From assembly GCF_000959445.1 (NCBI RefSeq), contig NZ_CP009630.1, positions 1,922,001 to 1,986,000 of the forward strand: a DNA stretch of 64,000 bases. Reading direction: 5' to 3'. Under the pieces are notes generated by a model, which did no database searches, had not been told where the DNA came from, and was given only the letters and a program-made list of their open reading frames with translations. Positions within the stretch are counted from its first letter, which is position 1; the number at the start of each line of letters is the position of its first letter. Positions 693-18,988 of the stretch are shown here, piece after piece. The stretch is from Burkholderia vietnamiensis LMG 10929 (GTDB lineage Bacteria > Pseudomonadota > Gammaproteobacteria > Burkholderiales > Burkholderiaceae). The translations under genes and the position numbers were made by a program.

Positions 693-881
693 CTATCCGT
701 GCGGCGGCGCTATGCCGTCGCGGACATAGCAGGCAATCGCCTCGAGCATGCCGAGGTCGAGGTCCTGCACGCGGTCGGCCCCGAAATGGGCCAACCATTT
801 GCGCGCAAGCTCGGCATGCGCCGTCGTATGCCCGGTCGCGGCAAGGGCACTCAGGTCTTCCAGTGCTGAACGCTCGTCCAT
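693..881 (-). CDS. 62-residue hypothetical protein at the end of the polyyne operon
   Basis: This is a small acidic, helical protein with no signal peptide or membrane segment. Motifs visible are LEDLSALAATGHTTAHAELARKWLAHF and DLGMLEAIACYVRDGIAPP, here described by their ends only. A clear Shine-Dalgarno (GGAGAAG) precedes the ATG at 879-881. It lies 60 bases after the thiolase stop on the same strand and is probably the last gene of the same transcript. I do not recognise the family. The good ribosome-binding site and the orientation favour a real gene. Confidence 0.55.
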   Translation of the reverse strand: MDERSALEDLSALAATGHTTAHAELARKWLAHFGADRVQDLDLGMLEAIACYVRDGIAPPHG

Positions 882-941
882 GTCTTCTCCGTGATCCTGA
901 TGGTGCGGACGCGGCCGGCCGTCGTCGCGGCCGGGCTGCCG

Positions 942-2126
942 TCAGACGGCTTCGAGCGCGAGAGCGATGCCCTGCCCGCCGCCGATGCACAAGGTCACGA
1001 TGCCGCGCTTGATGCCGTCGCGGCGCATCGAATGCGCGAGCCGGGTGGTCAGGACGGCACCGGTCGCGCCGATCGCGTGACCGTGCGCGATCGCGCCGCC
1101 TTCGACGTTGATCCGCTCTTCGTCGATGCCGAGCTCGCGCGCGACCGCGATCGGCACGGCGGCAAAGGCCTCGTTGATCTCGAACCGCTCCACGTCGTTC
1201 ATCGACCACCCGGCACGCGCGAGCGCCATCTTCACTGCCGGCACCGGCCCGAGTCCGAACAGGCCCGGCTCGACCGCCCCCACGCCGTACGAGACGAGCG
1301 TGGCGATCGGCTCGATGCCGCGCGTCTCGGCATAACGCCGCTCGGCCACGATCATCGCCGCCGCACCGCTGTTCAGGCCGGGCGCATTGCCGGCGGTGAT
1401 GGTGCCGTCAGCGCGAAATGCGGGCTTCAGCCTCGCAAGCGACTCGAAGTTCGTGTCCGGGCGCGGCTGCTCGTCGCGCTCGAATCGGACGGTCTGCTTG
1501 CGCCCCGCGACCTCGACCGCCACCAGTTCGGCGTCGAATGCCCCACGCGCCTGCGCGTCGGCGAAGCGCCGTTGCGAACGTTCCGCCCAGCGGTCCTGCT
1601 GCTCGCGCGTGATCCCCTTCATCGCGACGAGGTCTTCCGTGTGCCATCCCGAATGCAGGTTGGAGAACGCATCGACGAGGCCATCCACGAGCATGCTGTC
1701 GGCGATCTCGGCATTGCCCATCCGATAGCCCCAACGGCCGCCGCCGAGCAGATACGGCGCGCCGTCCATGTTCTCCATTCCGCCTGCCGCCGCAACCTCG
1801 CCGAAGCCGAGCCAGATGTCCTGCGCCGCATTCGCGATGGCCTGCGCACCGGAGCCGCACACGCGATTGACCGTCAGCGCGGGCACGGTCACGGGAATGC
1901 CGCCCGCGACGGCCGCCTGACGCGCGGGATTCATCTTGTTGCCGGCCTGCACGACGTTGCCCATCACGACCGACGCCAGCTCCGCCGGATCGATCTCGCT
2001 GCGACGCACCGCTTCGCGCAACGCGGCCGCGCCGAGCGCCGTCGCCGTAACGTCCTTCAACGTGCCGCCGAACGCGCCGATTGGCGTCCGGACGGGACTG
2101 CAGATCACTACCTGTCGAGCAACCAT
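942..2126 (-). CDS. thiolase (acetyl-CoA C-acyltransferase family)
   Basis: This 394-residue protein has the full thiolase signature: the nucleophilic cysteine in [11 protein letters not shown] (C90), the [14 protein letters not shown] histidine motif and the C-terminal [13 protein letters not shown] motif. Thiolases make or cleave 3-ketoacyl-CoA. In this setting it may adjust chain length of the fatty acid precursor or recycle degraded chains; that is inference. The start at ATG 2124-2126 ([10 protein letters not shown]) follows GGAG with about 8 bases spacing; longer in-frame extensions upstream are not protein-like. It is co-directional with the polyyne genes but separated from the rubredoxin by 167 bases holding a strong hairpin, so it may be expressed at a different level. 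Confidence 0.9.
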
Positions 2127-2263
2127 TTCAACACTCCATTCAAAGCCCGCTTCATGCGGGACGGATGCCGCCGCAACTCGACGCGGCGCTTGCGGGAAAG
2201 GAACGCATGCATTCGCATGCCCGGCACGTTCGTAAAGCGCTCTCGTGTGCCGACGCACGCACC

Positions 2264-2290
2264 GATGGCGGGGCGACGCGCCCCGCCATC
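2264..2290 (-). terminator. strong hairpin just after rubredoxin stop
   Basis: A perfect 12-base stem (GATGGCGGGGCG/CGCCCCGCCATC) with a 3-base loop starts 3 bases after the rubredoxin stop codon. No T-run follows on the minus strand, so it may be a weak terminator or an mRNA-stabilising or processing structure between the core polyyne genes and the thiolase. Confidence 0.55.
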
Positions 2291-2293
2291 GCG

Positions 2294-2479
2294 TCAGATC
2301 GAGACCATTTCGAAATCCTCCTTGCCGACGCCGCACTCGGGACACTTCCATTTGGCCGGAATGTCTTCCCAGCGCGTGCCCGGTGCAATGCCGTCTTCCG
2401 GCGCACCGTGCCGTTCCGAATAAATCCAGCCGCACACCAGACACATCAGCGTGCGCATCTCTACCGCCGTCGTGCTCAT
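2294..2479 (-). CDS. rubredoxin
   Basis: This 61-residue protein has the two CxxC iron-binding knuckles of rubredoxin (LMCLVCGWIY near residues 13-16 and KCPECGVGKEDF near 46-49) and the conserved DGIAPGTRWEDIP segment between them. Rubredoxins pass single electrons to non-haem diiron enzymes such as membrane desaturases, so this is the likely electron donor for the four desaturases of the cluster. Its ATG overlaps the stop of the hydrolase gene (ATGA), a sign of translational coupling. A rubredoxin at this place is a constant feature of known bacterial polyyne clusters. Confidence 0.93.
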   Translation of the reverse strand: MSTTAVEMRTLMCLVCGWIYSERHGAPEDGIAPGTRWEDIPAKWKCPECGVGKEDFEMVSI

Positions 2480-3399
2480 CTCGCCATCTCTCCCAGGTTC
2501 GACGTCTGTCGCGTCACGAATTCGCGCACCTGCTCGCGCACCCTCGCATCCGACAGGATGCGGCCGTGCCCCGCGCCCGGCGCCGGCCACAGCGTCGCGT
2601 CCGGCAGCCCGGCCACGACGCGCTGCGCCTCGCAGTACGGCACCACCGAATCGGCCGGGTCGTGCACCACCAATACCGGGACGTCGAGCGACGCGCCGCG
2701 CGCGAGCAGATCCCAGTGACTGACCGGCACGCCGTTGCGCAGCTGCAGCTCCGCATAGATGCGCTCGACCACCGGGCGCGGAAATGCCATGTCGCGGCTG
2801 GCCCAGCGCTCCAGCACCTCGGTCAGCCCGCTGGTCGGGGCGATCAGCACGAGGCAGCGCAACGACGCGCGGCGCGAGCGCTCGGCCAGCGCCGAGACGG
2901 CCGCGATCGAGCCGAGCGAATGCGCGATCACCACCTGCGCGCCTTCGATCGCATCCAGCACCGCACCCGTCGCGCGGGTGAACTGCGTCATCGTCGTATG
3001 CTTGCCCGGCGAACGGCCATGCGCGGGCGCGTCGAACGCGGCCACCGAGAAGCCGAGCGACTGCATCGGCTTCACGAAGCTCAGCATGCTGCTGCTGTCG
3101 GTGCCCCAGCCATGCACGAGCAGCACGCGCGATGCGCCGCCCTCCCAGTGATAGGCGCGGTCGATGTCCGCGTTGCCGTCGATGGACGCCTCCTTCGCAC
3201 CGAGCGGCACGCGGTCGCTGACGGGCAGCCCGTAGCCGCGCGTGAAGCCGAACGTGTCGGCCGCCCGGCGCCCCGCGGCGTGCGGCGCGAAGGTCGTCAG
3301 CACGCGCAGCGCGCGACGGCCGAGCCGAACGCGCCACGACGGCTTCCGGGCCTTGCGCCGCGCGAGCGGCGAGACGTCGGTAGGGTTCGCTGCCGCCAT
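2476..3399 (-). CDS. alpha/beta hydrolase, polyyne thioesterase type
   Basis: The 307-residue protein has an alpha/beta-hydrolase fold: oxyanion region LLVHGWGTDSSS, nucleophile elbow AHSLGS (serine), acid VHDPADSVVP (aspartate) and a late histidine in APGAGHGRI. In polyyne clusters the equivalent hydrolase is thought to release the finished acyl chain from the carrier protein. It could also take part in lactone formation; that is inference. The start ATG overlaps the desaturase stop by one base (TGATG) and its own stop overlaps the rubredoxin start, so three genes are tightly coupled. The first 60 residues are a basic extension before the fold proper. Confidence 0.88.
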   Translation of the reverse strand: MAAANPTDVSPLARRKARKPSWRVRLGRRALRVLTTFAPHAAGRRAADTFGFTRGYGLPVSDRVPLGAKEASIDGNADIDRAYHWEGGASRVLLVHGWGTDSSSMLSFVKPMQSLGFSVAAFDAPAHGRSPGKHTTMTQFTRATGAVLDAIEGAQVVIAHSLGSIAAVSALAERSRRASLRCLVLIAPTSGLTEVLERWASRDMAFPRPVVERIYAELQLRNGVPVSHWDLLARGASLDVPVLVVHDPADSVVPYCEAQRVVAGLPDATLWPAPGAGHGRILSDARVREQVREFVTRQTSNLGEMAR

Positions 3400-4496
3400 C
3401 ACCGGCCCTCCGCCGCCGCACGCGCGCCGACCGGCACGGCCTCCCGGGACAGGCTGCGGTAGTAACCCGACTCGGTGTCGTAGAAATGGCAGTGACCGAT
3501 CACGTGCCACAGATCGCCGAAGGAGAAATCCTTTTCGCGGATCATTCCCGGAAACGCCTGCTTGAGCGCCGCCTGCGCCTTCGGCAGGTTGTAGAACGGC
3601 ACGATCGGTGCGACGTGGTGCGCCGTATGCACCGAGATGTTGTGCGTCATGAAGTGCAGCCACTTCGGATACCGGTAGTCGGTCGTCACCAGCAGGCGGC
3701 TGGCGTTCGGCGTCCAGTGCTGCGACGGCAGGAACGGGATCTCGTCCGACGTGTGATGCATCAGCGTCGTGGCGCTGAACCACGCATGAATCATCAACCA
3801 GGGCACGACGAAGTACAGGAACAGGCCGGTGATGCCGGTGAAGTAGATGAGCGCCGGGAAATAGAGCGCGGACGCGAACAGGACGAACGCGATCGAGCGT
3901 TTCACGTCGCGCCGCATCTCGCGCTTCGGATAGAAGCCCGGACGGAAGCCCGATTCCTTCCAGTAGCTCACCGTGCCGGCCCAGAACAGCCACTTGCGGG
4001 TGCCGGCGTACTCGAGCCGCTTCAACAGCGGCATGCGATCGTAAAGCGGCGCGGGAATCGGCCGCCAGTCGGTATCGAGCTCGAGGTTGTTGGTATTCGC
4101 GTGGTGCAGGTTGTGCGTGTGGCGCCACGCGTGAAACGGATACAGCAGCGGCAGAAGCGACAGGTGCCCGATCGCCAGGTTGAACCATCGGACGCGCGAA
4201 AACGAGTTGTGCCCGCAATCGTGCGCGATGCAATGCAGCCCCCAGCCGCCCAGGCCGGCCAGCAGCCACAGCGGAACGTAGAACAGCCAGTGCGGCGCGT
4301 AAGCGATGCCGACGAGCGCGCCGATATACGCCGCATAGCTCACCACGAAACCGAGAATGCCGCGCCATACGCGCGGCTCGTAGAGGGATTTCGGAATCGC
4401 ATCGGTCAGCCGCACGCCCTCGAGCGACTTCGACTTCTGCATGAATTCGTCGAAACGCGCCGGCGGCGCGCTGGGGACCGTGTAGGTTTTCGCCAT
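3399..4496 (-). CDS. membrane fatty acid desaturase (core polyyne enzyme, third)
   Basis: This 365-residue integral membrane protein carries the three histidine boxes of the membrane fatty acid desaturase/hydroxylase family: HDCGH (92-96), HAWRHTHNLHH (122-132) and a late HTAHH. Hydrophobic segments lie around residues 45-90 and 190-230. The HDCGH type resembles delta-12 desaturases and acetylenases, so it may convert an alkene to an alkyne on an ACP-bound chain. It follows the ACP gene by 13 bases and has GGGAG before its ATG. The gene order ACP-desaturase-hydrolase-rubredoxin matches caryoynencin-type clusters. Confidence 0.92.
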   Translation of the reverse strand: MAKTYTVPSAPPARFDEFMQKSKSLEGVRLTDAIPKSLYEPRVWRGILGFVVSYAAYIGALVGIAYAPHWLFYVPLWLLAGLGGWGLHCIAHDCGHNSFSRVRWFNLAIGHLSLLPLLYPFHAWRHTHNLHHANTNNLELDTDWRPIPAPLYDRMPLLKRLEYAGTRKWLFWAGTVSYWKESGFRPGFYPKREMRRDVKRSIAFVLFASALYFPALIYFTGITGLFLYFVVPWLMIHAWFSATTLMHHTSDEIPFLPSQHWTPNASRLLVTTDYRYPKWLHFMTHNISVHTAHHVAPIVPFYNLPKAQAALKQAFPGMIREKDFSFGDLWHVIGHCHFYDTESGYYRSLSREAVPVGARAAAEGR

Positions 4497-4509
4497 GTCG
4501 ATCTCCCGC

Positions 4510-4830
4510 TTACGCCGCTTGCAGACCGAGCTCGGTCGACAGGTGGCGCGCCAGCTCGTCGATGCTGTTGTGTTCGAACAGCAGCGCCGGGGACAGCCGC
4601 TGCTCGACCACCTTCTCCAGATCGCCCGACACCTGCACGGCGACGATCGAATCGAGCCCGTACTCGTCGAAGCGCTTGGCGGGATCGATCGCGGCGCGCT
4701 CGAGCTTCAGCTGCTTGGCGAGCCGGTCGATCAACCAGTTGCGGATCGACGCTTCGGTGAGCGGCCCGACATCGGCGGCCACCGCCTTCTTGCGGCCGAA
4801 CAGGCCGCCCAGGATTCCAGCTTGAGACAT
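4510..4830 (-). CDS. acyl carrier protein for polyyne assembly
   Basis: The 106-residue protein is a phosphopantetheine carrier: YGLDSIVAVQ holds the attachment serine (S61) in the DS(L/I) motif, followed by helix II and III segments. A basic N-terminal extension (about 25 residues, with GRKK) precedes the carrier fold and is longer than in housekeeping AcpP. It should receive a fatty acyl chain from the neighbouring fatty acyl-AMP ligase and present it to the desaturases. It lies between the second and third core desaturase genes, and GGAAGG precedes the ATG. Confidence 0.92.
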   Translation of the reverse strand: MSQAGILGGLFGRKKAVAADVGPLTEASIRNWLIDRLAKQLKLERAAIDPAKRFDEYGLDSIVAVQVSGDLEKVVEQRLSPALLFEHNSIDELARHLSTELGLQAA

Positions 4831-4885
4831 GATGATTAATCCTTCCGTACGAGGGAGATGAACTGAATGACGACGGCAACTAGCT

Positions 4886-5869
4886 TCAATACGGCTGCTT
4901 GGCGAGCTTGCGGATCGCCGCCGGCGTCGGCTGACGCAGGTCGCGCACGATGCCGACCTTGCCGAGCGTCCACAGCACCCAGGCGCTCAGATCCGGCTCG
5001 TACCACTTCACCGAATGGCGGTATGACGCGGGGAATGCGTGGTGGTTGTTCTGCAGGCCTTCGCCGAACGTGAATACGGCGACCGTCCAGTTGTTCGCGC
5101 TGTTGTCCCCGGTCTTGAACGGCCGGCCGCCGAACATGTGGCACACGGACCCCACGCACCACGCGGCCTGGTTGGCCACGAAGATGCGCGCCAATCCGCC
5201 GAACAGCAGGCCGTTCCATGCGCCGAGCCACGAGCCGGCGACGGCGCCGCCGATCGCGGCCGGCAGCACGAGGCCGAGCACGATCCACCAGGCGTAGGTG
5301 CGGTGATAGAAGAACAGGCGGCGATCGCGCAGCACGTCGGGCGCGAAGAAGGTCCAGCCCGAGACGTCGGGGGCCAGCATCCACGGCATGTGCGCATACC
5401 AGAGGCCGCGCAGCTTCGCGAACAGGCCCTTGCCGGCCAGATTCGGCGAATGCGGATCGCCTTGCTGATCGCTGTACAGGTGATGTCGGCGGTGCGTCGT
5501 CACCCAGAACATGATCGGTCCTTGCGCGGCCATCGACCCGCAGATCAGCAGCAGCCCTTCGAACCACTTCGACGTGCGGAACGTCTTGTGCGCGAGATAC
5601 CGATGGAAGCCCATCGTGATCCCGCCCATGTGCAGAAAATAGAACACCGCGAACAGCACGAGATCGGTGGCGGCGAACTCGCCCAGCACGAGCTGGCGTA
5701 CCGCCAGCGCGAAGCCGGCCAGCGGCACCAGCATCACGGCCAGGGCGGTCAGGCGTTTGACGCGCGCCCCGCTGCCCAGCAGCGGCGAAACACCGGGGAT
5801 CTGCCCGTCGGCGGCCGACAGCCCGCCTGCGGCAGTCACGCCGGGTGCAACCTGAATCGACGAATTCAT
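4886..5869 (-). CDS. membrane acyl desaturase (core polyyne enzyme, second)
   Basis: The 327-residue membrane protein has histidine boxes of the stearoyl-CoA desaturase-like group: HRYLAH (89-94), HRRHH in TTHRRHHLYS and NNHHAFP near the C terminus. Four hydrophobic spans are visible (about 42-62, 66-86, 185-205 and 208-228). Members act on acyl-CoA or acyl-ACP with electrons from a rubredoxin or ferredoxin. A GGAGATT ribosome site precedes ATG 5867-5869. It is a clear paralogue of the next gene upstream, with the same box pattern and length, suggesting a tandem duplication that set up successive desaturation steps. Confidence 0.92.
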   Translation of the reverse strand: MNSSIQVAPGVTAAGGLSAADGQIPGVSPLLGSGARVKRLTALAVMLVPLAGFALAVRQLVLGEFAATDLVLFAVFYFLHMGGITMGFHRYLAHKTFRTSKWFEGLLLICGSMAAQGPIMFWVTTHRRHHLYSDQQGDPHSPNLAGKGLFAKLRGLWYAHMPWMLAPDVSGWTFFAPDVLRDRRLFFYHRTYAWWIVLGLVLPAAIGGAVAGSWLGAWNGLLFGGLARIFVANQAAWCVGSVCHMFGGRPFKTGDNSANNWTVAVFTFGEGLQNNHHAFPASYRHSVKWYEPDLSAWVLWTLGKVGIVRDLRQPTPAAIRKLAKQPY

Positions 5870-5894
5870 AGGAATCTCCAGACGCTAAACAGGA

Positions 5895-6854
5895 TTACGG
5901 CGAAATTGAAGGAGCCGTCGCGCGGCGCTTGGGCGCATAGCGCACCTCCGTGACGAGCCCCAGCGCGTCGAGCAGGCGGATGACCCAGGCGGAAGGATCG
6001 AGCTGCCAGAACGCGTGATCGTTGTTGGCGAAGGCCGGCTGTGCGTGATGGTTGTTGTGCCACGCGCCGCCCACCGAGACGATCGCGAGCAGGCCCAGAT
6101 TGCGGCTGTGGTCGCGCGTCGCGTGCGGGCGGGTGCCGATGGTGTGGCACAGCGAATTGACGGCCCAGGTCGACTGATCGAGCAGGAAGATCCGTGCGAG
6201 CCCGCCCCACAGGAAACCGCCGACGGCGCCGGTCAAGGCCTGCCCGGCCGGCGCGAGCAACGCGCCCGCCAGCGCGGGCAGCGCAAGGCCGAGCAGCACC
6301 CACCACCCATAGCGCAGATTGAGATTGACGATCAGGCGGTCGCGCAGCAGGTCCGCGGCATACGCGCTCCAGTTCTCGCGGCGCACGCTGAACAGCCAGC
6401 CCACGTGACCGTGCCAAAGGCCCGCGAGCCGGCTCGGTTGGCCGTGGCGGTTCGCGCGCGGCAGCGGCGAATGAGGATCGCCGTCCTGATCGGTGAACGC
6501 GTGGTGCATGCGGTGCGTCGCGGCCCAGAACAGGATCGGCCCCTGGGCGGCCATGCTGCCGAATACGCCGAGCATCACGGTGACGATCGGCCGTCCCTTG
6601 AACGCACGGTGTGAGAAGTAACGGTGCATGCCGGTTTCGACGCCGATCGCGGTCGAGAAATACATCACCGCGAGCAGGATGAAGTCGGTGGCGCGCACGC
6701 CGTATGTCCACGTGTAGGCAATCGCGAGCACGAAACCGAGCGCGGGAACGCCGACGGTCAGATAAGCGAGCCGGCGCGCGCGCGAGTCGGTGTCGGCGTC
6801 GGCCGCACCGGCGGCCGCGGGTGTTCGCGACGACGAGAGATCTGCTTCAGCCAT
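5895..6854 (-). CDS. membrane acyl desaturase (core polyyne enzyme, first)
   Basis: The 319-residue membrane protein has HRYFSH (77-82), HRMHH and HNNHHAQP boxes, the same arrangement as its downstream neighbour 25 bases away. Conserved phrases shared with it include SMAAQGPI(L/M)FW before box two and GGLARIF before the last third. The pair probably carries out successive double-bond to triple-bond conversions on the ACP-bound chain; the exact positions cannot be read from sequence. The start follows CGGAG with good spacing. Confidence 0.92.
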   Translation of the reverse strand: MAEADLSSSRTPAAAGAADADTDSRARRLAYLTVGVPALGFVLAIAYTWTYGVRATDFILLAVMYFSTAIGVETGMHRYFSHRAFKGRPIVTVMLGVFGSMAAQGPILFWAATHRMHHAFTDQDGDPHSPLPRANRHGQPSRLAGLWHGHVGWLFSVRRENWSAYAADLLRDRLIVNLNLRYGWWVLLGLALPALAGALLAPAGQALTGAVGGFLWGGLARIFLLDQSTWAVNSLCHTIGTRPHATRDHSRNLGLLAIVSVGGAWHNNHHAQPAFANNDHAFWQLDPSAWVIRLLDALGLVTEVRYAPKRRATAPSISP

Positions 6855-6914
6855 GACTGGCTCCGAAGAAAGACAGCGACAATGGAAATCGGGAATGCGG
6901 CAGCGGCGAACGGC

Positions 6915-8711
6915 TCAGGCGCGGGCCTCGAGCGTGCTCAGGCTGCCTTGCTGAAACGCCTGCTTGCACGCTTGCCTGCGCACCTTGCCGCTGGTCGTGA
7001 GCGGAATCGCGCCCATCGGCCCCAGGTGCACGACCGCCGGCGCCACGCCGTGATCGCGCGTGACCGCCAGCGTGATCGCCGCCCGCACCTCGCCCATTTG
7101 CTCGGGGCTCAGACGGCGCGAGCGCTTGAGCTCCGCAACGATGACGAGCGACTCCCGCGGGCCGCCGTCGATCGAAAACGCCACCACGCCGTTGGTTCGG
7201 ATCGCATCGTGCGCGGCCTGCACCGATCCTTCGATGTCGGTCGGATAGAGGTTGCGCCCGGCGACGATCACGACGTCCTTGATCCGGCCCGTGACGAACA
7301 GCTCGCCGTGGTTCAGAAAGCCGAGATCGCCGGTGCGGAGGTAGCGCGCCGAATCGGCGTCGCCGCGTTCGTCGCAGACCGCCGCCGCGAACACGTCGTC
7401 GCTGTCCGCGCGGCCGAGATAGCCGGCAGCGACGTTCGGACCGCTGAACCAGATTTCGCCGATGCTGCGCTCCGGCAGCGCGCGCTTCGTCGCAGGATCG
7501 ACGATCAGCAGCCGATGGCCGGCCGCCACGGGCCCGCAGCCCACCAGCGTCGTGCGCCCGAGCAGGTCGGATTGCGCGTCGTACGGCACGCACTGGCCGC
7601 GGGCGAGCGCCTCCTTGTCGACGTCGATCAGCGTGATCGGCGAACGGCCGGGCTTGCCGGACACGTAGAGCGTCGCCTCCGCCATTCCGTAGCACGGCAC
7701 CACGGCGCGGCGCTCGAAGCCATGCCGGCCGAAGCGCGCGGCGAAGCGCTCGAGCGTCGCGTGGCTCACCGGCTCCGCGCCGCAGAACACGTGCTGCAGC
7801 GAGCCGAGATCGAGCGTGGCGGCTTCTTCGTCGCTGATGTGGTCGACGCATAGGTCGAACGCGAAATTCGGCGCGACGCTGGTGGTCACGCGGTAGTCGC
7901 TGATCGCCTTGAGCCAGCGATACGGACGCTGAACGAAATGCTGCGGCGACAGGATCACGAGCGGAAAGCCGCTGAACACCGCGAGCAGCAGCGCGCCCAT
8001 CAGGCCCATGTCGTGATACGGCGGCAGCCACGTGCAGCCGACGCGCTCCGGATCGGCGCCGAGCCGCTCGGCGATCACCGCGCAGTTGCTGACGAGATTC
8101 CGGTGCGTGACGACGACGCCCTTCGGCTCGCCCGTCGATCCCGACGTGTACTGCAGCAGCGCCGGCCGCTCCAGATCGAGGCCCTGCTCCAGCACGCGCC
8201 CGAAGTCGTGCGCCGATGCGTCGATGGCGTCGAAAGCATGCTCGTCGATCGTCAGCAACGCCGGCGCGACGCGCGCGCCGTCGTGCAGCCGGTCGAGCTC
8301 CTGTTGCAGCGAGCGATGCTGCTTGCCGGCGATCACCACGTCGGGACGGGCGTCGCGGCAGATCGACGCGAAACGCGCCACGGCGCGGGAGCCGGCCGGC
8401 GGAAACGAAGGCACCGCGGTGGCGCCCGCCAGCAGGATTCCGAACAGCGCCGCGACGTAACCGAGACCGGGTTCCAGCACCAGCAATACGCGGCGTTCGT
8501 GCAGCGCGTGCTGCACGAGCAGATCGCGCACGTGGGCCGCAGCGGCGGCGAACTGGCCGTAGGACCAGCTCGCGACGTCGTCCTCGCCGTCGCGCAGAAA
8601 ATGGAACGCGACACGCTCCGGCGTGTGCTCGGCACGCTCGCGAAGCACATGGAGCAGCGACGAGGTCGTGCGCTCCGCCAGCAGAGCGGAGGGAGGAATG
8701 CTACCGGCCAT
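6915..8711 (-). CDS. fatty acyl-AMP ligase (polyyne chain loading)
   Basis: The protein (598 residues from this start) is an ANL-superfamily adenylating enzyme of the FAAL type. The P-loop motif LLQYTSGSTGEPKG is at 185-198, a GMAEATLYVSG segment lies in the middle, and the catalytic hinge TGDLGFLNHGELFVTGR lies in the C-terminal third. It would activate a free fatty acid as acyl-AMP and load it on the cluster ACP. The start chosen is the second of two adjacent ATGs, 7 bases after GAGGG; ATG 8712-8714 and a TTG at 8751-8753 are alternatives. The gene heads the conserved polyyne core block. Confidence 0.92.
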   Translation of the reverse strand: MAGSIPPSALLAERTTSSLLHVLRERAEHTPERVAFHFLRDGEDDVASWSYGQFAAAAAHVRDLLVQHALHERRVLLVLEPGLGYVAALFGILLAGATAVPSFPPAGSRAVARFASICRDARPDVVIAGKQHRSLQQELDRLHDGARVAPALLTIDEHAFDAIDASAHDFGRVLEQGLDLERPALLQYTSGSTGEPKGVVVTHRNLVSNCAVIAERLGADPERVGCTWLPPYHDMGLMGALLLAVFSGFPLVILSPQHFVQRPYRWLKAISDYRVTTSVAPNFAFDLCVDHISDEEAATLDLGSLQHVFCGAEPVSHATLERFAARFGRHGFERRAVVPCYGMAEATLYVSGKPGRSPITLIDVDKEALARGQCVPYDAQSDLLGRTTLVGCGPVAAGHRLLIVDPATKRALPERSIGEIWFSGPNVAAGYLGRADSDDVFAAAVCDERGDADSARYLRTGDLGFLNHGELFVTGRIKDVVIVAGRNLYPTDIEGSVQAAHDAIRTNGVVAFSIDGGPRESLVIVAELKRSRRLSPEQMGEVRAAITLAVTRDHGVAPAVVHLGPMGAIPLTTSGKVRRQACKQAFQQGSLSTLEARA

Positions 8712-8792
8712 CATGAGACCCTCGGATAATCGGTTTCGTATTGTTTCGATCAAATCGTCATGCCCGGCGCCGGGCCGAACGCGGCGCCGCCC

Positions 8793-11133: not shown

Positions 11134-12134
11134 ACCGTCGCTCGAATGGATGCGCGCGCACCCATTCGCTCCAGGATCCGTCGTGCGGCGAATGCCGGCC
11201 GGTCGAGCTGGATGTCGATCATCGGCGCCGTGGGGCTCCAGTTCGCCTGCAGGCTCTCCGCGACGTCCTTGTCCTCCATCACGGTCGCGAACACCTCCTT
11301 CGCGGTGAACTCGGTAAACCGCTCGTTGTCGACGTCGAAGTCGCGGTGCATGCCCACGAACACGTGGGTGGTGGTGTCGGTGGCGGGCGTGAAGATCGTC
11401 GTCGTATAGACGTGGAAGATCCGGCCGCTGGCATCGTCGCAGGCGTGCGCTCGCGTTTCGACCCGCGTGTTGCCGATGGGCCAGTAGAGCACTTCCTGGA
11501 AGCGATCGATGTAGTCGAGCTTCAGGATATGGGTATAGAGCGGCGGCGTCTTCTCGCGGCGCAAGTAGCGGCGCACGCGGACTTCGTCCTCGCCGATCAC
11601 GATTTCAGGCGGCGTCTCGACGATGTCGAGCGAGCCGAGCGTCTTCGCGTGCACGAACGCGGCGTGTGAAATATCGAGGATGTTGTCGATCCCGAACAGG
11701 TAGCTGCACGCGATCGTGCAATAGCTCATCGTTCCGGCGAGCTCGGGCGCCGAGCAGACCCAATGGTTCGGAATCGCCGCCTCGTCGGCCTGGTCGGGGT
11801 CGCCGGTCCACAGCCAGATGAAGCCGTATTTCTCGACGGCGGGGAACGCGCGCACGCGCGCGCCCTTCGGGATCGTGCTCTGACTCGGAATGCCGACGCA
11901 CGCGCCGGAACAGTCGTACCTGAGCCCGTGGTACCAGCACTGGAGTTCGTCGCCGACCACGCGCCCGCGGGACAACGGAACCTGTCGGTGCGGGCATCGA
12001 TCCTCGAGCGCGACGACCTGGTCCGCCAGGGTTCGATACATGACGACCTTATGGTTCAGGATCGTCCGGGCAAAGGGCTCGCGCTGGACTTCCGCGGAGA
12101 GTGCTGCTGCATACCACGCATTCTCGATAAACAT
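11130..12134 (-). CDS. Rieske non-haem iron oxygenase
   Basis: The 334-residue protein has a Rieske [2Fe-2S] site, CPHR (C47, H49) and CWYHG (C66, H69), followed by the mononuclear iron motif IDNILDISHAAFVH of vanillate O-demethylase/KshA-type oxygenases. Such enzymes hydroxylate, demethylate or desaturate using a separate reductase. No dedicated reductase gene is visible in the cluster, so a housekeeping partner or the rubredoxin would be needed. It probably installs oxygen on the polyyne chain; the position is unknown. The ATG follows AGAGAGG. Its stop overlaps the next start by four bases (ATGA). Confidence 0.93.
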   Translation of the reverse strand: MFIENAWYAAALSAEVQREPFARTILNHKVVMYRTLADQVVALEDRCPHRQVPLSRGRVVGDELQCWYHGLRYDCSGACVGIPSQSTIPKGARVRAFPAVEKYGFIWLWTGDPDQADEAAIPNHWVCSAPELAGTMSYCTIACSYLFGIDNILDISHAAFVHAKTLGSLDIVETPPEIVIGEDEVRVRRYLRREKTPPLYTHILKLDYIDRFQEVLYWPIGNTRVETRAHACDDASGRIFHVYTTTIFTPATDTTTHVFVGMHRDFDVDNERFTEFTAKEVFATVMEDKDVAESLQANWSPTAPMIDIQLDRPAFAARRILERMGARASIRATV

Positions 12135-12214: not shown

Positions 12215-13297
12215 CTACTTGCGCATGACGGCGATCAACGCATCGGCGTCCGGCGCGTCCATCGATGCCGCCTCGCGGTCGAGATGCCCCTGCGCCATCC
12301 GCTCGAGGAATTCGTCGGTCGACGACTGCAGATTGACGCAGGGATACTGGAAACGGCCCGTCGTATACCGAAGCGCGCCGAAGAAGGACGGCTCGACCGG
12401 CGCGCGTGCCGCGGCGAGCAGCCCCTGCGACATCAGATACTTGTGGAGCGCCGGCAGCCGGTAGCACGGCACAGCCGGATACTGATGGTGTTCGAGATGG
12501 AAGTTGCTGCCGAAGAACAGCGCGGTGTAGATCGGCGACGTATAGCTGCGGCTGTCGCGATAACGCCCCGGCACGGTATCCGTGTGCTCGATGTACGCGC
12601 GGATGGTGCTGAACACGTAGACGCCGATATACGGAATCAGCATGACCGTGAAGCCGAGCCACAACGACCGATGCCAGATGAACCCGTAGGCCGTCACCGC
12701 ACCCAGGTTCAGTGCAATGTTGATCCGCGAGATCCAGCGCATTTCGCGCTCGCTGAACGGCAGCCGCGTGTTCTCCGGCCACGGAAGGCCAGCGGCCATG
12801 CGTACGGCGTTCTTCGTATAGATCCGTACGCCCCGGGAGCGCGCGAGAAAGAAGCGCGACCAGAAGGTGCGGTACTGCGAATAGATCTGGACATCGGGGT
12901 CGATGTCCTGACCGGTGTAGCGATGGTGCTTCCAGTGAGTCATGCTGAAACCCACGATCAGGAAGCCCGGCACCAGCGACGAGCAGATGAGCGCCAGCGC
13001 GGCGCTCACGTACTTGTTGCGATGCAGGTTGGTGTGCATGCCCTCGTGGCCGACGAAGGTCAGCAGATGCATGCCGTGGCCCGCGATCACGCCGAGGACG
13101 AGCGCCATCGCCACACGGGCCGGCGCCGACGCCGGGATATCGACGACGGCGAACGCCACCGCAGCCGGAATCAGGAAGAATGCGAGCGCGTGCGCCACAT
13201 AGAGGATCGTCGCGACGGAGCTGATCTGGTGGAAGTGTCGCGGCAGCTTGAGCCGCGAAAATGCAGCATTGCCGTCCAACGTGGCTTCGATGGTCAT
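12215..13297 (-). CDS. membrane fatty acid desaturase/hydroxylase (accessory, fourth)
   Basis: The 360-residue membrane protein has histidine boxes GHEGMH (83-88), HWKHHRYTG and HLEHHQYP and about four hydrophobic spans. The HLEHH third box is of the FA_desaturase type and differs from the three core desaturases downstream, so this one may act on a different bond or make the terminal modification. The start ATG 13295-13297 follows GAGGAG; a longer frame starting at 13324 lacks such a site. It is placed in the upstream tailoring half of the operon between an FAD enzyme and a Rieske oxygenase. Confidence 0.9.
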   Translation of the reverse strand: MTIEATLDGNAAFSRLKLPRHFHQISSVATILYVAHALAFFLIPAAVAFAVVDIPASAPARVAMALVLGVIAGHGMHLLTFVGHEGMHTNLHRNKYVSAALALICSSLVPGFLIVGFSMTHWKHHRYTGQDIDPDVQIYSQYRTFWSRFFLARSRGVRIYTKNAVRMAAGLPWPENTRLPFSEREMRWISRINIALNLGAVTAYGFIWHRSLWLGFTVMLIPYIGVYVFSTIRAYIEHTDTVPGRYRDSRSYTSPIYTALFFGSNFHLEHHQYPAVPCYRLPALHKYLMSQGLLAAARAPVEPSFFGALRYTTGRFQYPCVNLQSSTDEFLERMAQGHLDREAASMDAPDADALIAVMRK

Positions 13298-13405
13298 GGA
13301 ATGGCTCCTCGGCTTACTCGACATGGGACCGGTGACAGGCAGAACTGCCCCGCCACGGCTTGCATACGCGTGATCGAAACGACCACGCGCCGTCGTTCCG
13401 TGCGC

Positions 13406-14791
13406 TCATATCGACGCTCTCGCGCAAACGTCGCGATCGCCACCGGCGGTCACCGGCGCGAGATCGTCCGACTCGCATGCCTGCGCCCACCTCGCGTGCG
13501 CCTCGTCGGCGAGACGCTGGCGCAACGCCATCTCGGCGCGGATCGTCTCGCCTCGCGTCGACATGTCGATCAGCGGCTGAATGACGCCGGTTTCGCCGCC
13601 GGCAATGGCCTCGTCCGCCCATTTCTTGATATCGCTGGGATCGAACACCGCAAACGGCGAACATCGGCGATTCTGCGAAGCCAGCAAGCGCGCCTGCAGC
13701 ACCGGGTCGGCCGTCAGCTTGCCGAACAGGATCCGGCTGAGCGGATTGTTGTGGCCGAGTGCGCCGCGGCCGCGCGAGTATTCGAACAGGTCGATCGACG
13801 TCGCGTCGCGCTGGCGCCAGTAGCATTCCAGCGCGCGGTCGTCGTCCTCGACGATGGCCTGGCCGAGTGCGCGCGCATCGCGAAGTGCGTCGGTGATGCC
13901 GAATCCGGGGGACGGATCCATGAACAGGCCCGCGTCGCCCACCAATGCCCAGCCGGGTCCGGCAGCCTGACGGAAGAAGAAGCGCAGCTTCAATGCGCCG
14001 AGCACCTTGCTCACCGGCTCACCGGTAATCAGCGGCGCCGTATGGCGGTTGCCCTTCAGCGTTTCGGTCAGCTTCTCGAGCGCGCGGCCCTTCCACTGCG
14101 GCAACTGCGTTTTCGGGAACGCCACCCCGATCAGCAGAAGATCGCGGTTGGTCGGAAACACGAAGACGATGTCGTCGCCGAACGTGCAGTTCATCGCCCC
14201 GCCCAGATAGCGCGGATCCGTGTCGAACCAGTCGGGACGCGGCCAGTACGCCCAGTACATCGCGCGCGGGCAGTCATAGCCGTGGTACTCCTCCGCGCCG
14301 ACCAGCTCGGCCGTCGTCGAGTGCGGGCCGTCCGCGCCCACCACGATCCGCGCGCGGATCTCCTCGCGCACGCCGTCATGTTCGACCACGGCGCCCGTCA
14401 CGCGCTCGCCGTCGCACAACAGGCCGACCAGCCGGGTCCGGGCCCGCACCTCGGCCCCCGACGCGCGGGCCTCCTCCAGCAACAGGGCATCGAGATCCAT
14501 GCGGCGCGGGCACGAGCAGCGCTCGCCGACCGGGTACTCGACGCGGCCCGTCACGTCGTCGTTTCCGTACATCATGCTGGGCACCGGGGGCGCGAAGCGG
14601 CGCACCTTGTCGCCGAGCTCGAGCTCGTCCAGCAACGCCATGCCGTAGGGAGAAATCCAGTGGGTGGACAACGGTTGATCGCTCGGCAGATGGTTCGCAT
14701 CGATCGCCAGCACGCGCTTGCCGGCGCGCGCCAGATGAATCGCGAGCGTGGCGCCCGCACAGCGGGCGCCTATGATGAGGGTGTCTAGCAC
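13406..14791 (-). CDS. FAD-dependent monooxygenase/oxidoreductase
   Basis: The 461-residue protein begins with a Rossmann FAD motif (LIIGARCAGATLAIHLARAG), then has GADGPHST (the DG motif) and LVGDAGLFMDPSPGFGITDAL (the GD motif). These three together mark the class A flavoprotein group that includes PHBH-type monooxygenases, geranylgeranyl reductases and flavin halogenases. No halogenase WxWxIP motif is evident. An epoxidation or hydroxylation role on the polyyne is plausible. The start codon is GTG at 14789-14791, preceded by AAGGGAA. About 108 bases separate it from the next gene. Confidence 0.87.
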   Translation of the reverse strand: MLDTLIIGARCAGATLAIHLARAGKRVLAIDANHLPSDQPLSTHWISPYGMALLDELELGDKVRRFAPPVPSMMYGNDDVTGRVEYPVGERCSCPRRMDLDALLLEEARASGAEVRARTRLVGLLCDGERVTGAVVEHDGVREEIRARIVVGADGPHSTTAELVGAEEYHGYDCPRAMYWAYWPRPDWFDTDPRYLGGAMNCTFGDDIVFVFPTNRDLLLIGVAFPKTQLPQWKGRALEKLTETLKGNRHTAPLITGEPVSKVLGALKLRFFFRQAAGPGWALVGDAGLFMDPSPGFGITDALRDARALGQAIVEDDDRALECYWRQRDATSIDLFEYSRGRGALGHNNPLSRILFGKLTADPVLQARLLASQNRRCSPFAVFDPSDIKKWADEAIAGGETGVIQPLIDMSTRGETIRAEMALRQRLADEAHARWAQACESDDLAPVTAGGDRDVCARASI

Positions 14792-14963
14792 GGAAAATTC
14801 CCTTTGGATAACGACCGGAGTCCGAACTGCACGGGACGCAACCTCGCCGTCGCCGGCGCCATCGGTCAGATGGAGAGCCGGCGAACGGCGGCGCAGCGCC
14901 GAATGATTACGGTTTGACGTACTGACGAAATCAGCGGTACTGCGGGACCCGCGTGCCCATCGC

Positions 14964-16256
14964 TCAATGCGCCTCGGCGGACCGATCCGACGGATATCGC
15001 CTGAACAGCACCGACGCGTTCACGCCTCCGAACCCGAACCCGTTGGACAGCGCGATCTCGACCGGCACGTGCCGCGCGGCAGGCCCGATCAGATCCAGCC
15101 CGTCGGCTGCCGGGTCGGGGTGCTCGAGATTCAGCGTGCCGGGCAGCACGCCATCGCGCAGAGCCAGAATGGAGAACGCCGCTTCGATGGCGCCCGCCGC
15201 TCCGAGCAGATGCCCGGTTGCCGACTTGGTCGACGAAATCGCCGGGCCGGCGCCCACACCGAACACCGTCTTCAGCGCCTCGATCTCGCCGGCGTCGCCG
15301 ACCGGCGTCGACGTCGCATGGGCGTTGACGTAGTCGACCTGCTCCGGAGCGACGTCGCCCATCCGCAGGGCCAGCTTCATCGCCCGCATCGCGCCGGATC
15401 CGTCGTCGGGTCCGGCGGTCATGTGATAAGCGTCGGCCGTGGTGCCGTAGCCGATGATTTCCGCGATCGGCCGGGCGCCGCGCGCCAGGGCATGATCCAG
15501 CGACTCGACCACCACCATGGCGGCGCCCTCGCCCATGACGAATCCGTCACGATCGCGATCGAACGGACGCGACGCCCGCACCGGCTCCTCGCTGAAGCCG
15601 GTCGACAGCGCGCGAGCCGCCGCGAAGCCCCCGAGGCTGACCTTGTCGAACGCCGCTTCGGCGCCGCCGGCGAGGACGACATCCGCCTCGCCGGTCCTGA
15701 TCATGCGCATCGCATCGCCGATCGCCTGCACACTCGCGGCACAGGCCGTCACGGGACAGCCGAGCGGCCCGCGGAACCGGTGCTTGATCGAAATCTGGCC
15801 GGCTGCCAGGTTCGACAGGAAGAACGGAATGGTGAACGGCGACAAGCGCCGCACGCCGCGCGTCTCGCCGATTCTCACCGCCTCCGCCAGGCCGGGAAAT
15901 CCGCCGATGCCCGAGGCCACGACGGTGGCGGTCCGCTCGCGCTGCTGCTCCGCTTCCGGCGCCCACCCTGCTTCGGCGAGCGCCTCGTCCGCGGCGACCA
16001 TCGCCATCTGGATGAAGCGGTCCATCTTCCGCAGTTCCTTGTGCGGCACCGAGCGCTCGGGATCGAAGCCGCCTTCCGGATCTTCGGCCACGTCCTGGAC
16101 GGTCCCGCCGACCTTGGCGGACAGCTCACCGGCGATATCGTCGCCGAGGCGGCGAAGCCCGGAGCCCCCGCCGATCAGGCGCTGCCACACCAATTCCTTC
16201 CCACAACCCAGTGGAGACACAATGCCAATACCGGTTACCACCACTCGAAGCGTCAT
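14964..16256 (-). CDS. beta-ketoacyl-ACP synthase II-like ketosynthase
   Basis: The 430-residue protein is FabF-like, with a Cys-His-His catalytic set: ACAASVQAIGD (C172), NAHATSTPVGD (H313) and GHLLGAAG (H349). The ending GFGFGGVNASVLFR is typical of the family. A dedicated ketosynthase could extend or shape the acyl precursor before desaturation, which would suit a product with an unusual chain length or oxygenated end. It is not required in the minimal polyyne core, so it probably belongs to the tailoring set. GAGAGGA lies upstream of the ATG. It sits 155 bases after luxI. Confidence 0.93.
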   Translation of the reverse strand: MTLRVVVTGIGIVSPLGCGKELVWQRLIGGGSGLRRLGDDIAGELSAKVGGTVQDVAEDPEGGFDPERSVPHKELRKMDRFIQMAMVAADEALAEAGWAPEAEQQRERTATVVASGIGGFPGLAEAVRIGETRGVRRLSPFTIPFFLSNLAAGQISIKHRFRGPLGCPVTACAASVQAIGDAMRMIRTGEADVVLAGGAEAAFDKVSLGGFAAARALSTGFSEEPVRASRPFDRDRDGFVMGEGAAMVVVESLDHALARGARPIAEIIGYGTTADAYHMTAGPDDGSGAMRAMKLALRMGDVAPEQVDYVNAHATSTPVGDAGEIEALKTVFGVGAGPAISSTKSATGHLLGAAGAIEAAFSILALRDGVLPGTLNLEHPDPAADGLDLIGPAARHVPVEIALSNGFGFGGVNASVLFRRYPSDRSAEAH

Positions 16257-16411
16257 CTCACATTCCTCTCGCTGACCGGGACTAGCCGAGCCACATCGTT
16301 AAAGCCGTTCATCTTCAGGCACACCTGTTGAAATACCGCATTGCGCGCGCCGCGCCGGGCCGCGCCGCCGGGCGGCGGCGCACGCGAACCTTCACGGCGC
16401 GCATCGCCCGC

Positions 16412-17071
16412 TCATACCGATTGCTCGAGCGCGCGCGACGCATCCGGCCTGCGCAACGTCTTGGGCGGCACGCCGCCGACGCGCTCCAGCCCGTCGAGGT
16501 TCAGCGCCGCACGCGTCTGTTCGTCGATCTCGATCCAGAACGGCAAGGTCGGCTTGCCTTCGATCATCTGGGGCGGTGCGGCGCGGTGCACATTGACGCC
16601 CATGCGCTTCAGGAGCCGTTCGTTGCCGAGCACGGAGAACGCAATGAGGCGATTGGCGCCATGGGCGTGCGCGACGCGAACGATTTCGGACATCATGGCG
16701 CGCGTGTTTTGCCACGACTCTTCGGCGGTCAACGACTCGCCGCGCGGCATGCTCATCGCGAAGCGGGACAGTTCCCACACGTCGGGGGCATGAGGAAGCG
16801 CGGCGTCGCCCATCAAGGTCGGGAACACGTCGCCGAGCAAATAAGGCTCGTCGGTCGGCAGCAAGCGGCCGCAACCGACGATTTCGCCATTGCGATCGCG
16901 GGCGATGACGTAAAGGGTATCTGCGTGATCGAAATTGTCGAATTCGATGCCATTATCGGTAGGCAAAGTCCATCCGAGTTCTTGTATGAAGACCTTATGC
17001 CGATACTTTGCGAGTTGATACATCGTTTCGCGATTCAAATCAGCGCTTCTTCCCGACAATAACGTCAGCAT
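16412..17071 (-). CDS. LuxI-type acyl-homoserine lactone synthase
   Basis: The protein (219 residues from ATG 17069-17071) carries the conserved LuxI positions at near-canonical numbering: R24, F28, W34, E43, D45, D48, R69, F83, E100 and R103, in phrases such as YRHKVFIQELGW, CGRLLPT and WELSRFAM. It makes an N-acyl-homoserine lactone from acyl-ACP and S-adenosylmethionine. GAGGG lies 7 bases before this ATG, so I prefer it over the in-frame ATG at 17089. A lux box lies 67 bases upstream. Being the first gene of the leftward polyyne transcript, it couples signal production to polyyne production. Confidence 0.95.
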   Translation of the reverse strand: MLTLLSGRSADLNRETMYQLAKYRHKVFIQELGWTLPTDNGIEFDNFDHADTLYVIARDRNGEIVGCGRLLPTDEPYLLGDVFPTLMGDAALPHAPDVWELSRFAMSMPRGESLTAEESWQNTRAMMSEIVRVAHAHGANRLIAFSVLGNERLLKRMGVNVHRAAPPQMIEGKPTLPFWIEIDEQTRAALNLDGLERVGGVPPKTLRRPDASRALEQSV

Positions 17072-17137
17072 CTGAATGCCCTCTCTCATCTCAGAATTGT
17101 TGACGCGATTGAACCCGAAATTGCAGCGGCAAAATAG

Positions 17138-17153
17138 CTGCCCGAATGGACAG
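17138..17153 (-). promoter_or_regulatory. lux box upstream of luxI
   Basis: On the minus strand this reads CTGTCCATTCGGGCAG, matching the CTG-N10-CAG lux/cep-box dyad with arms CTGTCC and GGGCAG. The plus-strand reading matches the CTGTCAGATTTGACAG consensus at 12 of 16 positions by eye. It lies 67 bases before the luxI start, as expected for a LuxR-activated promoter. Confidence 0.75.
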
Positions 17154-17463
17154 GTCGTACGTCGCAGACGCGATGGATCGCGCCGATTACGACGAAACGC
17201 GGTGCCGGGATAGCGAATTCAGGATTAACGGACGATCGTTCGAAAATCAGCGAAACGGAGCGCCGAAGCAGAGCGTGGGATCGGAAATTGGGGGCCGGGT
17301 ATCTCGGGCGCCGCATCACGGGATCGATGATTGCGATCGCGATCGAATCGGCGCCGCGCCGCTCAGGAAACTCGGACCCGAGATTTCCGTTTCACGGCAC
17401 GCGCGGTTCAGCGGATAAATCCGTGGCTTTTTGATGAAATAATCATCGGGATCGAACAAAAAA

Positions 17464-17847
17464 TCAGTGATCGGCGACGACGGCCGATTCAAGTGCGCGT
17501 TGCCGCGCCCCCGAACATAGCCAGTTCTGGATTAATGCCCGGCTGTATTGCGCGCCATAATCGTCGCCGTCCGTATCGAGAAGCATTACGTTGCTGCTGA
17601 CGTCGCCTCGCCCGACCTGCACGTCGGGCTGGCCCACCGCCACGTACCACGCGCAGCCGACGCTCGCGCTCGGCTGCGTGTCGGTGCAGACCAGCTCGTA
17701 GTAGCCGGCATTGACGGCGCTGATCCCCTCGCCCCAAAGATCATGCAGCAGTTCCGAATCGGGCTGACACATATGCTGACGGAAACGCAACGCGTAAAAT
17801 GCGGGCAAAGTCAATCGTATGTATCCATCGTTCCATTTTTTTTGCAT
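17464..17847 (-). CDS. small conserved-looking protein between luxI and luxR (possibly DUF4902)
   Basis: The protein has 127 residues from ATG 17845-17847 (MQKKWNDGYIRLTLPAFYAL). It contains PDSELLHDLWGEGISAVNAG, GCAWYVAVGQPDV and VMLLDTDGDDYG. It is acidic, with no signal peptide or membrane span. I recall a DUF4902 protein placed between luxR and luxI genes in other Burkholderia quorum-sensing loci, and this gene has the right place and size, but I could not compare sequences. The ribosome-binding site is weak, and a GTG at 17905-17907 is an alternative start. A regulatory or signal-tuning role is inference from position. Confidence 0.6.
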   Translation of the reverse strand: MQKKWNDGYIRLTLPAFYALRFRQHMCQPDSELLHDLWGEGISAVNAGYYELVCTDTQPSASVGCAWYVAVGQPDVQVGRGDVSSNVMLLDTDGDDYGAQYSRALIQNWLCSGARQRALESAVVADH

Positions 17848-18274
17848 ATCGGTTATCTCGACGTGACACCTGTTAAAATCGCTTCCGAATAGGCCGGCAA
17901 GATTCACGGTGGTCGGCCAGACGAGGGCTATTGCAACGCTCGTAGCGCGCCCGCGTTGTGATTCTTGATAGCCGGTTCGATCGCGCGCATGTGATTCAGG
18001 ATTATTGCAGATCGTCTGATGAATGACATCGCATTATCAGCCCGTGAAAAGGGGGCACGCCTGCGTGAAATTGAGCGTTTCGAGCGTCTCATCGTCAGTG
18101 CGGATGCTCCGCGAAATCCGTCGTCAAGCAAAAAATATCACCGGCGCCATGCTTTCTGCCTGATACCCGGAAAATTCAACCCCACCCTGGAATATCGTTT
18201 AATAAGAATCGACCGATGTGTCGACTACACGATATAGCTGCCTCATGGGTAAGATTGACCGAAAAGGTAATGAT
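17848..18274. promoter_or_regulatory. divergent promoter region of luxR and the small gene
   Basis: These 427 bases hold no convincing gene and are noticeably more AT-rich than the surroundings. They must contain the luxR promoter on the plus strand and the promoter of the small gene on the minus strand. The element ACACCTGTTAAAAT at 17866-17879 recurs with one change at 16321-16334. No second lux box was found here. Confidence 0.5.
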
Positions 18275-18988
18275 ATGCAGGCTTGGAGAGAAAAGTATCT
18301 GAATGGATTCGCCACCGCAAAATCCGAGGCCGACGTGTTTCTGGAGTTTTCGGCGGATGTGCGGGCGCTCGGATTCGACCACTGTTCATTCGGTCTGCGC
18401 ATACCGTTGCCGATCAGCAAGCCGCAGTTCATGCTGCAGTCCAACTATCCGCAGACGTGGGTCGAACGCTATGTGAGCCAGAACTATTTCGCCGTGGACC
18501 CGACGGTCCGGCACGGGTTGAGCCGGATGAGCCCGCTGATCTGGCGCGCCGACAGCCAGACGCAGTGCGTCCAGTTTTGGGAGGAGGCGGACCAACACGG
18601 CCTGCGGCACGGCTGGTGCATGCCGTCCGTCAGCCGCACCGGCGCGATCGGGCTCATCACGATGGTCCGGTCCGGCGAACCGATCGAGGAACGCGAGCTC
18701 GCGGAAAAGGGATACCAGATGTCATGGCTCGCCAACACGGCCAACTATGCGATGAGCATGCATCTGCTCCAGCGGCTCGTGCCCGAATACACCGTCGAGC
18801 TGACCGTACGCGAGCGCGAGGCGCTGCAATGGTCCGCTGCGGGGAAAACCTACGCGGAGATCGGCAAGATCATGCATGTCGACGACCGCACCGTCAAATT
18901 CCACCTCGTCAATGCGATGCGCAAGCTGAACGCGGCCAACAAGACCGAAGCCGCGGTCAAGGCCACCATGCTAGGGCTTTTGTTCTGA
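18275..18988 (+). CDS. LuxR-type quorum-sensing transcription regulator
   Basis: The 237-residue protein has an N-terminal autoinducer-binding domain with the conserved W62, Y66, D75, P76 and W90 (in TWVERYVSQNYFAVDP and PLIW) and a C-terminal GerE/LuxR helix-turn-helix (LTVREREALQWSAAGKTYAEIGKIM, followed by RTVKFHL). The start ATG 18275 follows AAAAGG; earlier in-frame ATGs lack such a site. It is divergent from luxI and the polyyne operon and is the obvious partner for the lux box upstream of luxI. Distance and order suggest it controls the whole polyyne transcript. Confidence 0.95.
   Translation: MQAWREKYLNGFATAKSEADVFLEFSADVRALGFDHCSFGLRIPLPISKPQFMLQSNYPQTWVERYVSQNYFAVDPTVRHGLSRMSPLIWRADSQTQCVQFWEEADQHGLRHGWCMPSVSRTGAIGLITMVRSGEPIEERELAEKGYQMSWLANTANYAMSMHLLQRLVPEYTVELTVREREALQWSAAGKTYAEIGKIMHVDDRTVKFHLVNAMRKLNAANKTEAAVKATMLGLLF

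Follow-up and report, generated by a model that had tools for sequence, protein, structure and literature searches.

Which polyyne does the gene cluster at one end of a 64,000-nucleotide stretch of the Burkholderia vietnamiensis LMG 10929 genome specify, and do all parts of that cluster share one history? The stretch (contig NZ_CP009630.1, positions 1,922,001–1,986,000), here called the window, had been described from its letters alone as carrying a complete, quorum-sensing-linked, cepacin-like polyyne cluster at window positions 693–18988. This sequence-only reading was followed up by domain scans, comparison with related clusters and trees of the individual gene blocks.

Results

The gene layout agrees with the cepacin cluster as published

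The cluster comprises 18 genes, of which only luxR is on the plus strand; the other 17 are on the minus strand. We named the genes A to Q by position, counting from luxR to the thiolase: luxR (A), a DUF4902 domain gene (B), luxI (C), a ketosynthase (D), an FAD oxidoreductase (E), a desaturase/hydroxylase (F), a Rieske protein (G), an NTF2-like protein (H), an MFS exporter (I), a fatty acyl-AMP ligase (FAAL; J), two desaturases (K and L), an acyl carrier protein (ACP; M), a third desaturase (N), a hydrolase (O), a rubredoxin (P) and the thiolase (Q), beyond which lies a 62-residue open reading frame (ORF). All 18 reading frames are open, and catalytic motifs were found in every gene inspected for them. 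Pfam scans and cross-cluster comparison confirmed the claimed core order of FAAL, two desaturases, ACP, desaturase, hydrolase and rubredoxin, as well as the luxI gene (Autoind_synth domain) and the divergent luxR (Autoind_bind and GerE domains). The proteins named in the sequence-only reading were real; its count of 16 omitted the acetyl-CoA acetyltransferase at 942–2126 and gene B, which we take to be an RsaM-type regulator. The 13 minus-strand genes D to P are laid out as a putative single operon, with luxI and the divergent luxR upstream.

A FAAL search across 65 Burkholderia genomes revealed a relative with at least 72% identity in nine genomes and relatives with 49–53% identity in four more. 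In five of the nine, the window genome included, all 18 genes occur in the same order. Per-gene identities to the window were 98–100% in genome G064, 84–96% in Nafp2/4-1b, 84–98% in B. latens LMG 24064 and 77–97% in Bp9142. The B. latens cluster is collinear over all 18 genes with the divergence expected between species, and its seven core genes are 89–98% identical to those of the window.

Cepacin has been detected by high-performance liquid chromatography (HPLC) in strains of B. latens, B. vietnamiensis and B. diffusa; 15 of 18 strains carrying the cepacin (ccn) cluster made it on both media and one more on one medium, and LMG 10929 is listed among the producers (PMC10485841). The ccn cluster is described as a 13-gene operon with luxRI upstream (PMC9518984), its locus tags run from RS03890 to RS03965, which would amount to 16 at an increment of five (PMC8406139), and an acetyl-CoA acetyltransferase gene has been named for it (PMC9098870). 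Moreover, the published names CcnK and CcnN for desaturases (PMC8406139) and ccnJ for the FAAL (PMC9518984) agree with our position letters, in which the FAAL is J and the first and third desaturases are K and N. Compared by published description, the ccn cluster of B. ambifaria BCC0191 is thus alike in gene count, operon layout, upstream luxRI, J/K/N positions and thiolase, and these descriptions contain no difference from the window.

Judged by its genes, the window cluster is almost certainly the Burkholderia ccn cluster for biosynthesis of the antifungal polyyne cepacin. The label "complete, quorum-sensing-linked, cepacin-like" is borne out by the gene-for-gene match with B. latens and the other genomes and by the fit to the published ccn description. 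Neither the kind of cluster nor its product is new, as both are published and ccn has already been reported from B. vietnamiensis (PMC8406139). The cluster was not recovered from a plasmid collection by a whole-cluster DNA search (12 records, the best covering 5% of the query), a FAAL tblastn search of that collection (1586 records) gave no match of at least 60%, and no B. ambifaria appeared among the best 80 matches of a genome-contig scan.

Rival products

Several points weigh against the assignment to cepacin. The likeness to BCC0191 rests on description and not on aligned letters, the B. latens strain listed in the HPLC work is LMG 24264 and the genome compared here is LMG 24064, and the tailoring genes alone do not tell cepacin from collimonin. 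In addition, cepacin was not detected in two of the 18 published cluster-bearing strains, one of B. ambifaria and one of B. vietnamiensis (PMC10485841). The latter finding would suit an intact-looking ccn cluster that is silent or altered, so that under usual conditions its product is a cepacin congener or is absent. This variant, which does not exclude the ccn assignment, is improbable for the window, where 18 frames are open, motifs are present where checked and the predicted lux box is kept with one mismatch to a perfect palindrome.

A different product would be expected if the same C16 tailoring enzymes worked on an ene-triyne core to give dihydroxylated polyynes of the collimonin or massilin type. 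In two Collimonas clusters (Collimonas sp. PA-H2 and G071), genes D to I and the core do occur in equal order, with D to I at 67–89% identity. The characterised Collimonas polyynes are collimonins. Two Massilia-type clusters ([Empedobacter] haloabium and G777) also share F, G, H, the core and thiolase Q (60% identity), and MasB places hydroxyls on the ene-triyne massilin C (PMC9098870). However, the seven core genes are only 46–72% identical to those of Collimonas, against 89–98% for B. latens, and are separated from them by a long branch; identity to the Massilia-type cores is 51–73%. Furthermore, the four stretches compared, two from Collimonas and two of Massilia type, contained no match to luxI, rsaM or luxR; the thiolase was unmatched in the Collimonas pair, and D, E and I were unmatched in the Massilia-type pair. 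What sets the window cluster apart from the collimonin type is therefore its core, together with the lux genes, rsaM and the thiolase, and we regard a collimonin or massilin product as very unlikely.

A caryoynencin-type C18 cluster has the identical seven-gene core order, and is already contradicted by the sequence to the point that we give it hardly any weight. The core is 43–67% identical to four Burkholderia clusters that appear to be of caryoynencin type. A cytochrome P450 gene is part of the caryoynencin cluster, and none was found among the 19 window ORFs scanned. The caryoynencin cluster is also described without a LuxRI regulator (PMC9518984).

The core and the tailoring genes seem to have different histories

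The sequence-only reading had further named the tailoring genes as possible makers of cepacin's epoxide, allene and lactone. This part is weak: since the six genes D to I are common to the two Collimonas clusters, they cannot alone explain these groups. Set against published cepacin and other polyyne clusters, the window cluster fits ccn by description, and its tailoring block is collimonin-like as well.

The core (seven genes, J to P) and the tailoring-and-export block (six genes, D to I) were therefore compared separately. Mean identity to the window was 81.4% for the core and 80.5% for the block in Caballeronia, 61.0% and 80.4% in Collimonas G071, and 59.6% and 80.2% in Collimonas PA-H2; the two Massilia types gave 61% and 74%, the latter from three tailoring genes only. 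The ratio of tree distances, Collimonas over Caballeronia, was 2.64–3.91 for the seven core genes and 0.82–1.27 for the six tailoring genes. These ranges do not overlap (exact rank test, p = 0.0012), although the p value overstates certainty because genes inside one block are not independent. With Massilia G777 in place of Collimonas the contrast was weaker (core 2.74–4.09; F, G and H 1.39–1.72). For the same taxa, the branch between Collimonas plus Massilia and Burkholderia plus Caballeronia had a length of 0.86 in the core tree and of 0.07 in the tree of F, G and H combined. In a wider core tree, Xenorhabdus grouped with Collimonas. The Burkholderia cores were joined there by those of B. stagnalis and B. 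singularis, in whose stretches D, E, F and I are unmatched.

These results suggest that the tailoring block and the core seem to have different histories and that, as the trees are read here, a single tailoring block accompanies two ancient core types. Bacterial C16 polyyne clusters are likely to be two-module chimeras, in which block D to I sits on two anciently different cores through core replacement or block transfer at the I/J junction (near 8714–8793). The two cores would probably be a Burkholderia/Caballeronia type (diynyl allene, cepacin) and a Collimonas/Massilia type (triyne, collimonin and massilin C). In the literature, the triyne of collimonin and the diynyl allene of cepacin are both ascribed to the core, and transfer of whole cassettes is discussed (PMC8406139, section 11 for the latter); the ccn, mas and col clusters have been grouped as C16 clusters, for which deletion after transfer has been proposed (PMC9098870, section 8).

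Some observations count against this history. The two-module pattern could also arise if all seven core genes had evolved faster along a single branch. The module trees hold few taxa, are unrooted and were built from local tblastn stretches (84–100% coverage for the main pairs), and support within the Burkholderia group of the small core trees was 34–59. Absence of D to I in Xenorhabdus cannot be inferred because the contig ends soon before the FAAL.

Further relatives of the cluster

The ccn-type cluster of Caballeronia peredens contains A and C to P at 72–87% identity together with the lux box; it differs in that the thiolase, rsaM and the 62-residue ORF are unmatched in the stretch compared. 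The remaining four of the nine genomes with a close FAAL (B. stagnalis, SRS-46, B. singularis and G043) have cores at 71–93% identity and distant Rieske relatives (40–52%). In B. stagnalis and SRS-46 the core is 80–93% identical to ccn, the Rieske protein 40% and the thiolase 35%, with a short H-like piece and no lux matches in the stretches compared; a Pfam scan placed an acyl-CoA thioesterase next to the B. stagnalis core. This cluster may possibly make an undescribed polyyne. B. singularis and G043 carry a ccn-type core (71–86%) with the Rieske gene (51–52%) placed past the rubredoxin, and the other tailoring genes are unmatched there.

A predicted lux-type box before luxI

Gene B lies between luxI and luxR. 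Alignment of five clusters revealed a conserved block between luxI and B with the palindrome CTGCCC-GAAT-GGGCAG. The window copy, CTGCCCGAATGGACAG at 17138–17153, is 48 bp before luxI and has one mismatch to a perfect palindrome; it was found with a 16-base length, whereas an earlier scan at 18–20 bases had given no lux-like match. Each of the six ccn-type clusters examined (the five 18-gene clusters and Caballeronia) has the box upstream of luxI with zero or one mismatch. Five of these occurrences are not independent of the discovery, because the box was spotted by aligning those clusters; the Caballeronia box lies outside the alignment and is an independent occurrence.

Scanning the window at up to three mismatches gave three matches against 1.05 expected, and 10 of 100 shuffles gave at least three; none lay before ketosynthase gene D, and 17138–17153 was the only match at one mismatch. 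In the whole genome (6.93 Mb, four contigs), a scan at up to one mismatch, with R allowed at one position, returned one match and the reversed control none. We propose that 17138–17153 is a lux-type box for LuxR.

Thiolase Q, Rieske protein G and NTF2-like protein H

The best PDB sequence match of thiolase Q is 7ei3 (MasL; 6.4e-144), and the thiolase of [Empedobacter] haloabium is nearly identical to this entry. MasL is described as a self-resistance acetyl-CoA acetyltransferase (PMC9098870, section 8). Its catalytic and polyyne-contact residues C90, H350, C380, R135 and H158 are all kept in Q, which is consistent with Q being a likely self-resistance gene. Rieske protein G is 84–85% identical to the gene at the masB place of the two Massilia-type clusters. 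As MasB has been shown to hydroxylate a polyyne (PMC9098870, section 7), we propose G, its counterpart by gene order, as a chain hydroxylase.

The structure model of H (predicted local distance difference test score, 86) showed two repeated alpha-beta units. Its best matches were NTF2-like/ketosteroid isomerase folds, an alpha+beta fold matched to solved structures, which points to an NTF2-like (SnoaL/ketosteroid isomerase) fold, probably in tandem; hhalign of the N-terminal against the C-terminal half gave a probability of 2.8% (E 0.016). One source name (P0028) suggested DUF3445, which was rejected since profile and fold point to NTF2. A Pfam scan of 34 H relatives matched only two other families, one member each (best E 0.026).

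Among 8000 scored candidates, 50 H relatives were seen, from Burkholderia, Caballeronia, Trinickia, Collimonas, [Empedobacter] haloabium and one metagenome-assembled genome labelled Saccharimonadales. A match of at least 66% identity was present in 6 of the 398 family genomes and in 4 of the 343 from the Collimonas family; 18 and 5 further genomes, respectively, had weaker ones. H is a possible marker of C16 polyyne clusters.

Features of the cluster

In addition to the entries in the table, FAAL J matches NCBIfam fatty-acid–AMP ligase models with scores under their cut-offs. Pfam gave no match for the 62-residue ORF at E ≤ 5, and its dN/dS was about 0.24–0.39 in four pairs, with the stop position unchecked in three relatives.

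Table. Coordinates (window positions), strand and supporting evidence for the predicted features of the cluster
Feature	Position	Strand	Evidence
62-residue ORF beyond thiolase	693–881	−	80–100% identity in 4/4 other full Burkholderia clusters
Acetyl-CoA acetyltransferase Q, putative MasL counterpart	942–2126	−	Thiolase_N 4.6e-81
Rubredoxin P	2294–2479	−	Rubredoxin 9.1e-22; two CxxC motifs
Alpha/beta hydrolase/thioesterase O	2476–3399	−	Hydrolase_4 5e-16
Desaturase/acetylenase N	3399–4496	−	FA_desaturase 1e-36; His boxes
Acyl carrier protein M	4510–4830	−	PP-binding 1.5e-15; DSI motif
Desaturase L	4886–5869	−	FA_desaturase 3e-22
Desaturase K, JamB-type by position	5895–6854	−	FA_desaturase 2.8e-15
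FAAL J	6915–8714	−	AMP-binding 9.8e-69; ATG start, ORF opens at 8753
MFS (DHA2-type) exporter I	8793–10211	−	MFS_1 4.5e-44; TIGR00711 227.6 bits, cut-off 230.2
NTF2-like protein H, masC counterpart by order	10216–11133	−	Predicted fold
Rieske oxygenase G, MasB counterpart by order	11130–12134	−	Rieske 5e-22; VanA_C 1.6e-34
Membrane di-iron desaturase/hydroxylase F, masA counterpart by order	12215–13324	−	FA_desaturase 2.8e-31; His boxes
FAD-dependent oxidoreductase/monooxygenase E	13406–14791	−	FAD_binding_3 3.1e-25
FabF-type ketosynthase D, Cys-His-His	14964–16256	−	TIGR03150 fabF 522 bits, cut-off 494; TACA, NAH, KSATGH motifs
LuxI-type acyl-homoserine lactone synthase C	16412–17089	−	Autoind_synth 1.5e-23
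Predicted lux-type box CTGCCCGAATGGACAG	17138–17153	+	48 bp before luxI; palindrome shared with related clusters
DUF4902 regulator B, presumably RsaM-type	17464–17847	−	DUF4902 4.9e-20; PDB 4o2h BCAM1869 2.6e-7
LuxR-type receptor A, divergent	18218–18988	+	Autoind_bind 7.5e-36; GerE 3.4e-16

Genome context

The nifH family passed its cut-off in the window genome and in G064, and not in Nafp2/4-1b or B. latens, the four genomes scanned. Nitrogen fixation is, among members of the B. cepacia complex, a pointer to B. vietnamiensis, and the nifH result agrees with that species. Window positions 1–21 kb are 98.8–99.9% identical per kb to G064, and the ten 1-kb bins directly before the window are 77–94% identical. 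Other 1-kb bins of the window genome ranged from 77 to 99.9%, and three other 12-kb stretches (three of seven fetched stretches were searched) gave 94, 89 and 98%. Recent spread of the whole cluster was considered and rejected, since a similar mosaic of identity to G064 occurs elsewhere in the genome; because such mosaics are general, the cluster is not special in this respect. Exchange between the window genome and G064, both nifH-bearing sister genomes, is frequent. Considered as a possible empty site, a B. arboris stretch that continues for 12 kb beyond its match had nothing longer than 200 bases in common with the window past base 488, so the two flanks of the cluster are not adjacent in that stretch.

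Elsewhere in the window, 35267–47211 holds a two-partner secretion pair, an ShlB-type transporter and a 3188-residue haemagglutinin-repeat protein that ends in a deaminase toxin domain. We take the pair to resemble contact-dependent inhibition systems.

Discussion

The gene content suggests the following pathway. LuxI would make an acyl-homoserine lactone, and LuxR with this signal would bind the box at 17138–17153, turning on luxI and the minus-strand operon, while the putative RsaM-type protein B may damp the switch. FAAL J would activate a C16 fatty acid and load it onto ACP M, desaturases K, L and N, supplied by rubredoxin P, would dehydrogenate the chain repeatedly, and hydrolase O would free it, functions that others have shown for the core of related clusters. 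Rieske protein G would hydroxylate the chain, a reaction demonstrated for MasB, which holds the corresponding place in the mas gene order. Oxygenation and ring closure may be finished by F, E, D and H, and MFS pump I may export the product. By analogy with MasL, for which this role has been shown, thiolase Q would protect the cellular acetyl-CoA acetyltransferase step.

The practical yield is a firm annotation of a biocontrol antibiotic pathway, including the likely self-resistance gene and the regulator. The predicted lux box, present once in the genome, offers a single site for testing control of the cluster. If the two-module history is true, the shape of the polyyne head would be set by the core, and the tailoring block would be a transferable unit able to work with more than one kind of head. 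Should the block indeed serve two cores, the origin of the cepacin allene would become a question of seven core genes and not of thirteen, and exchanging the modules would test directly which of the genes determine the structure.

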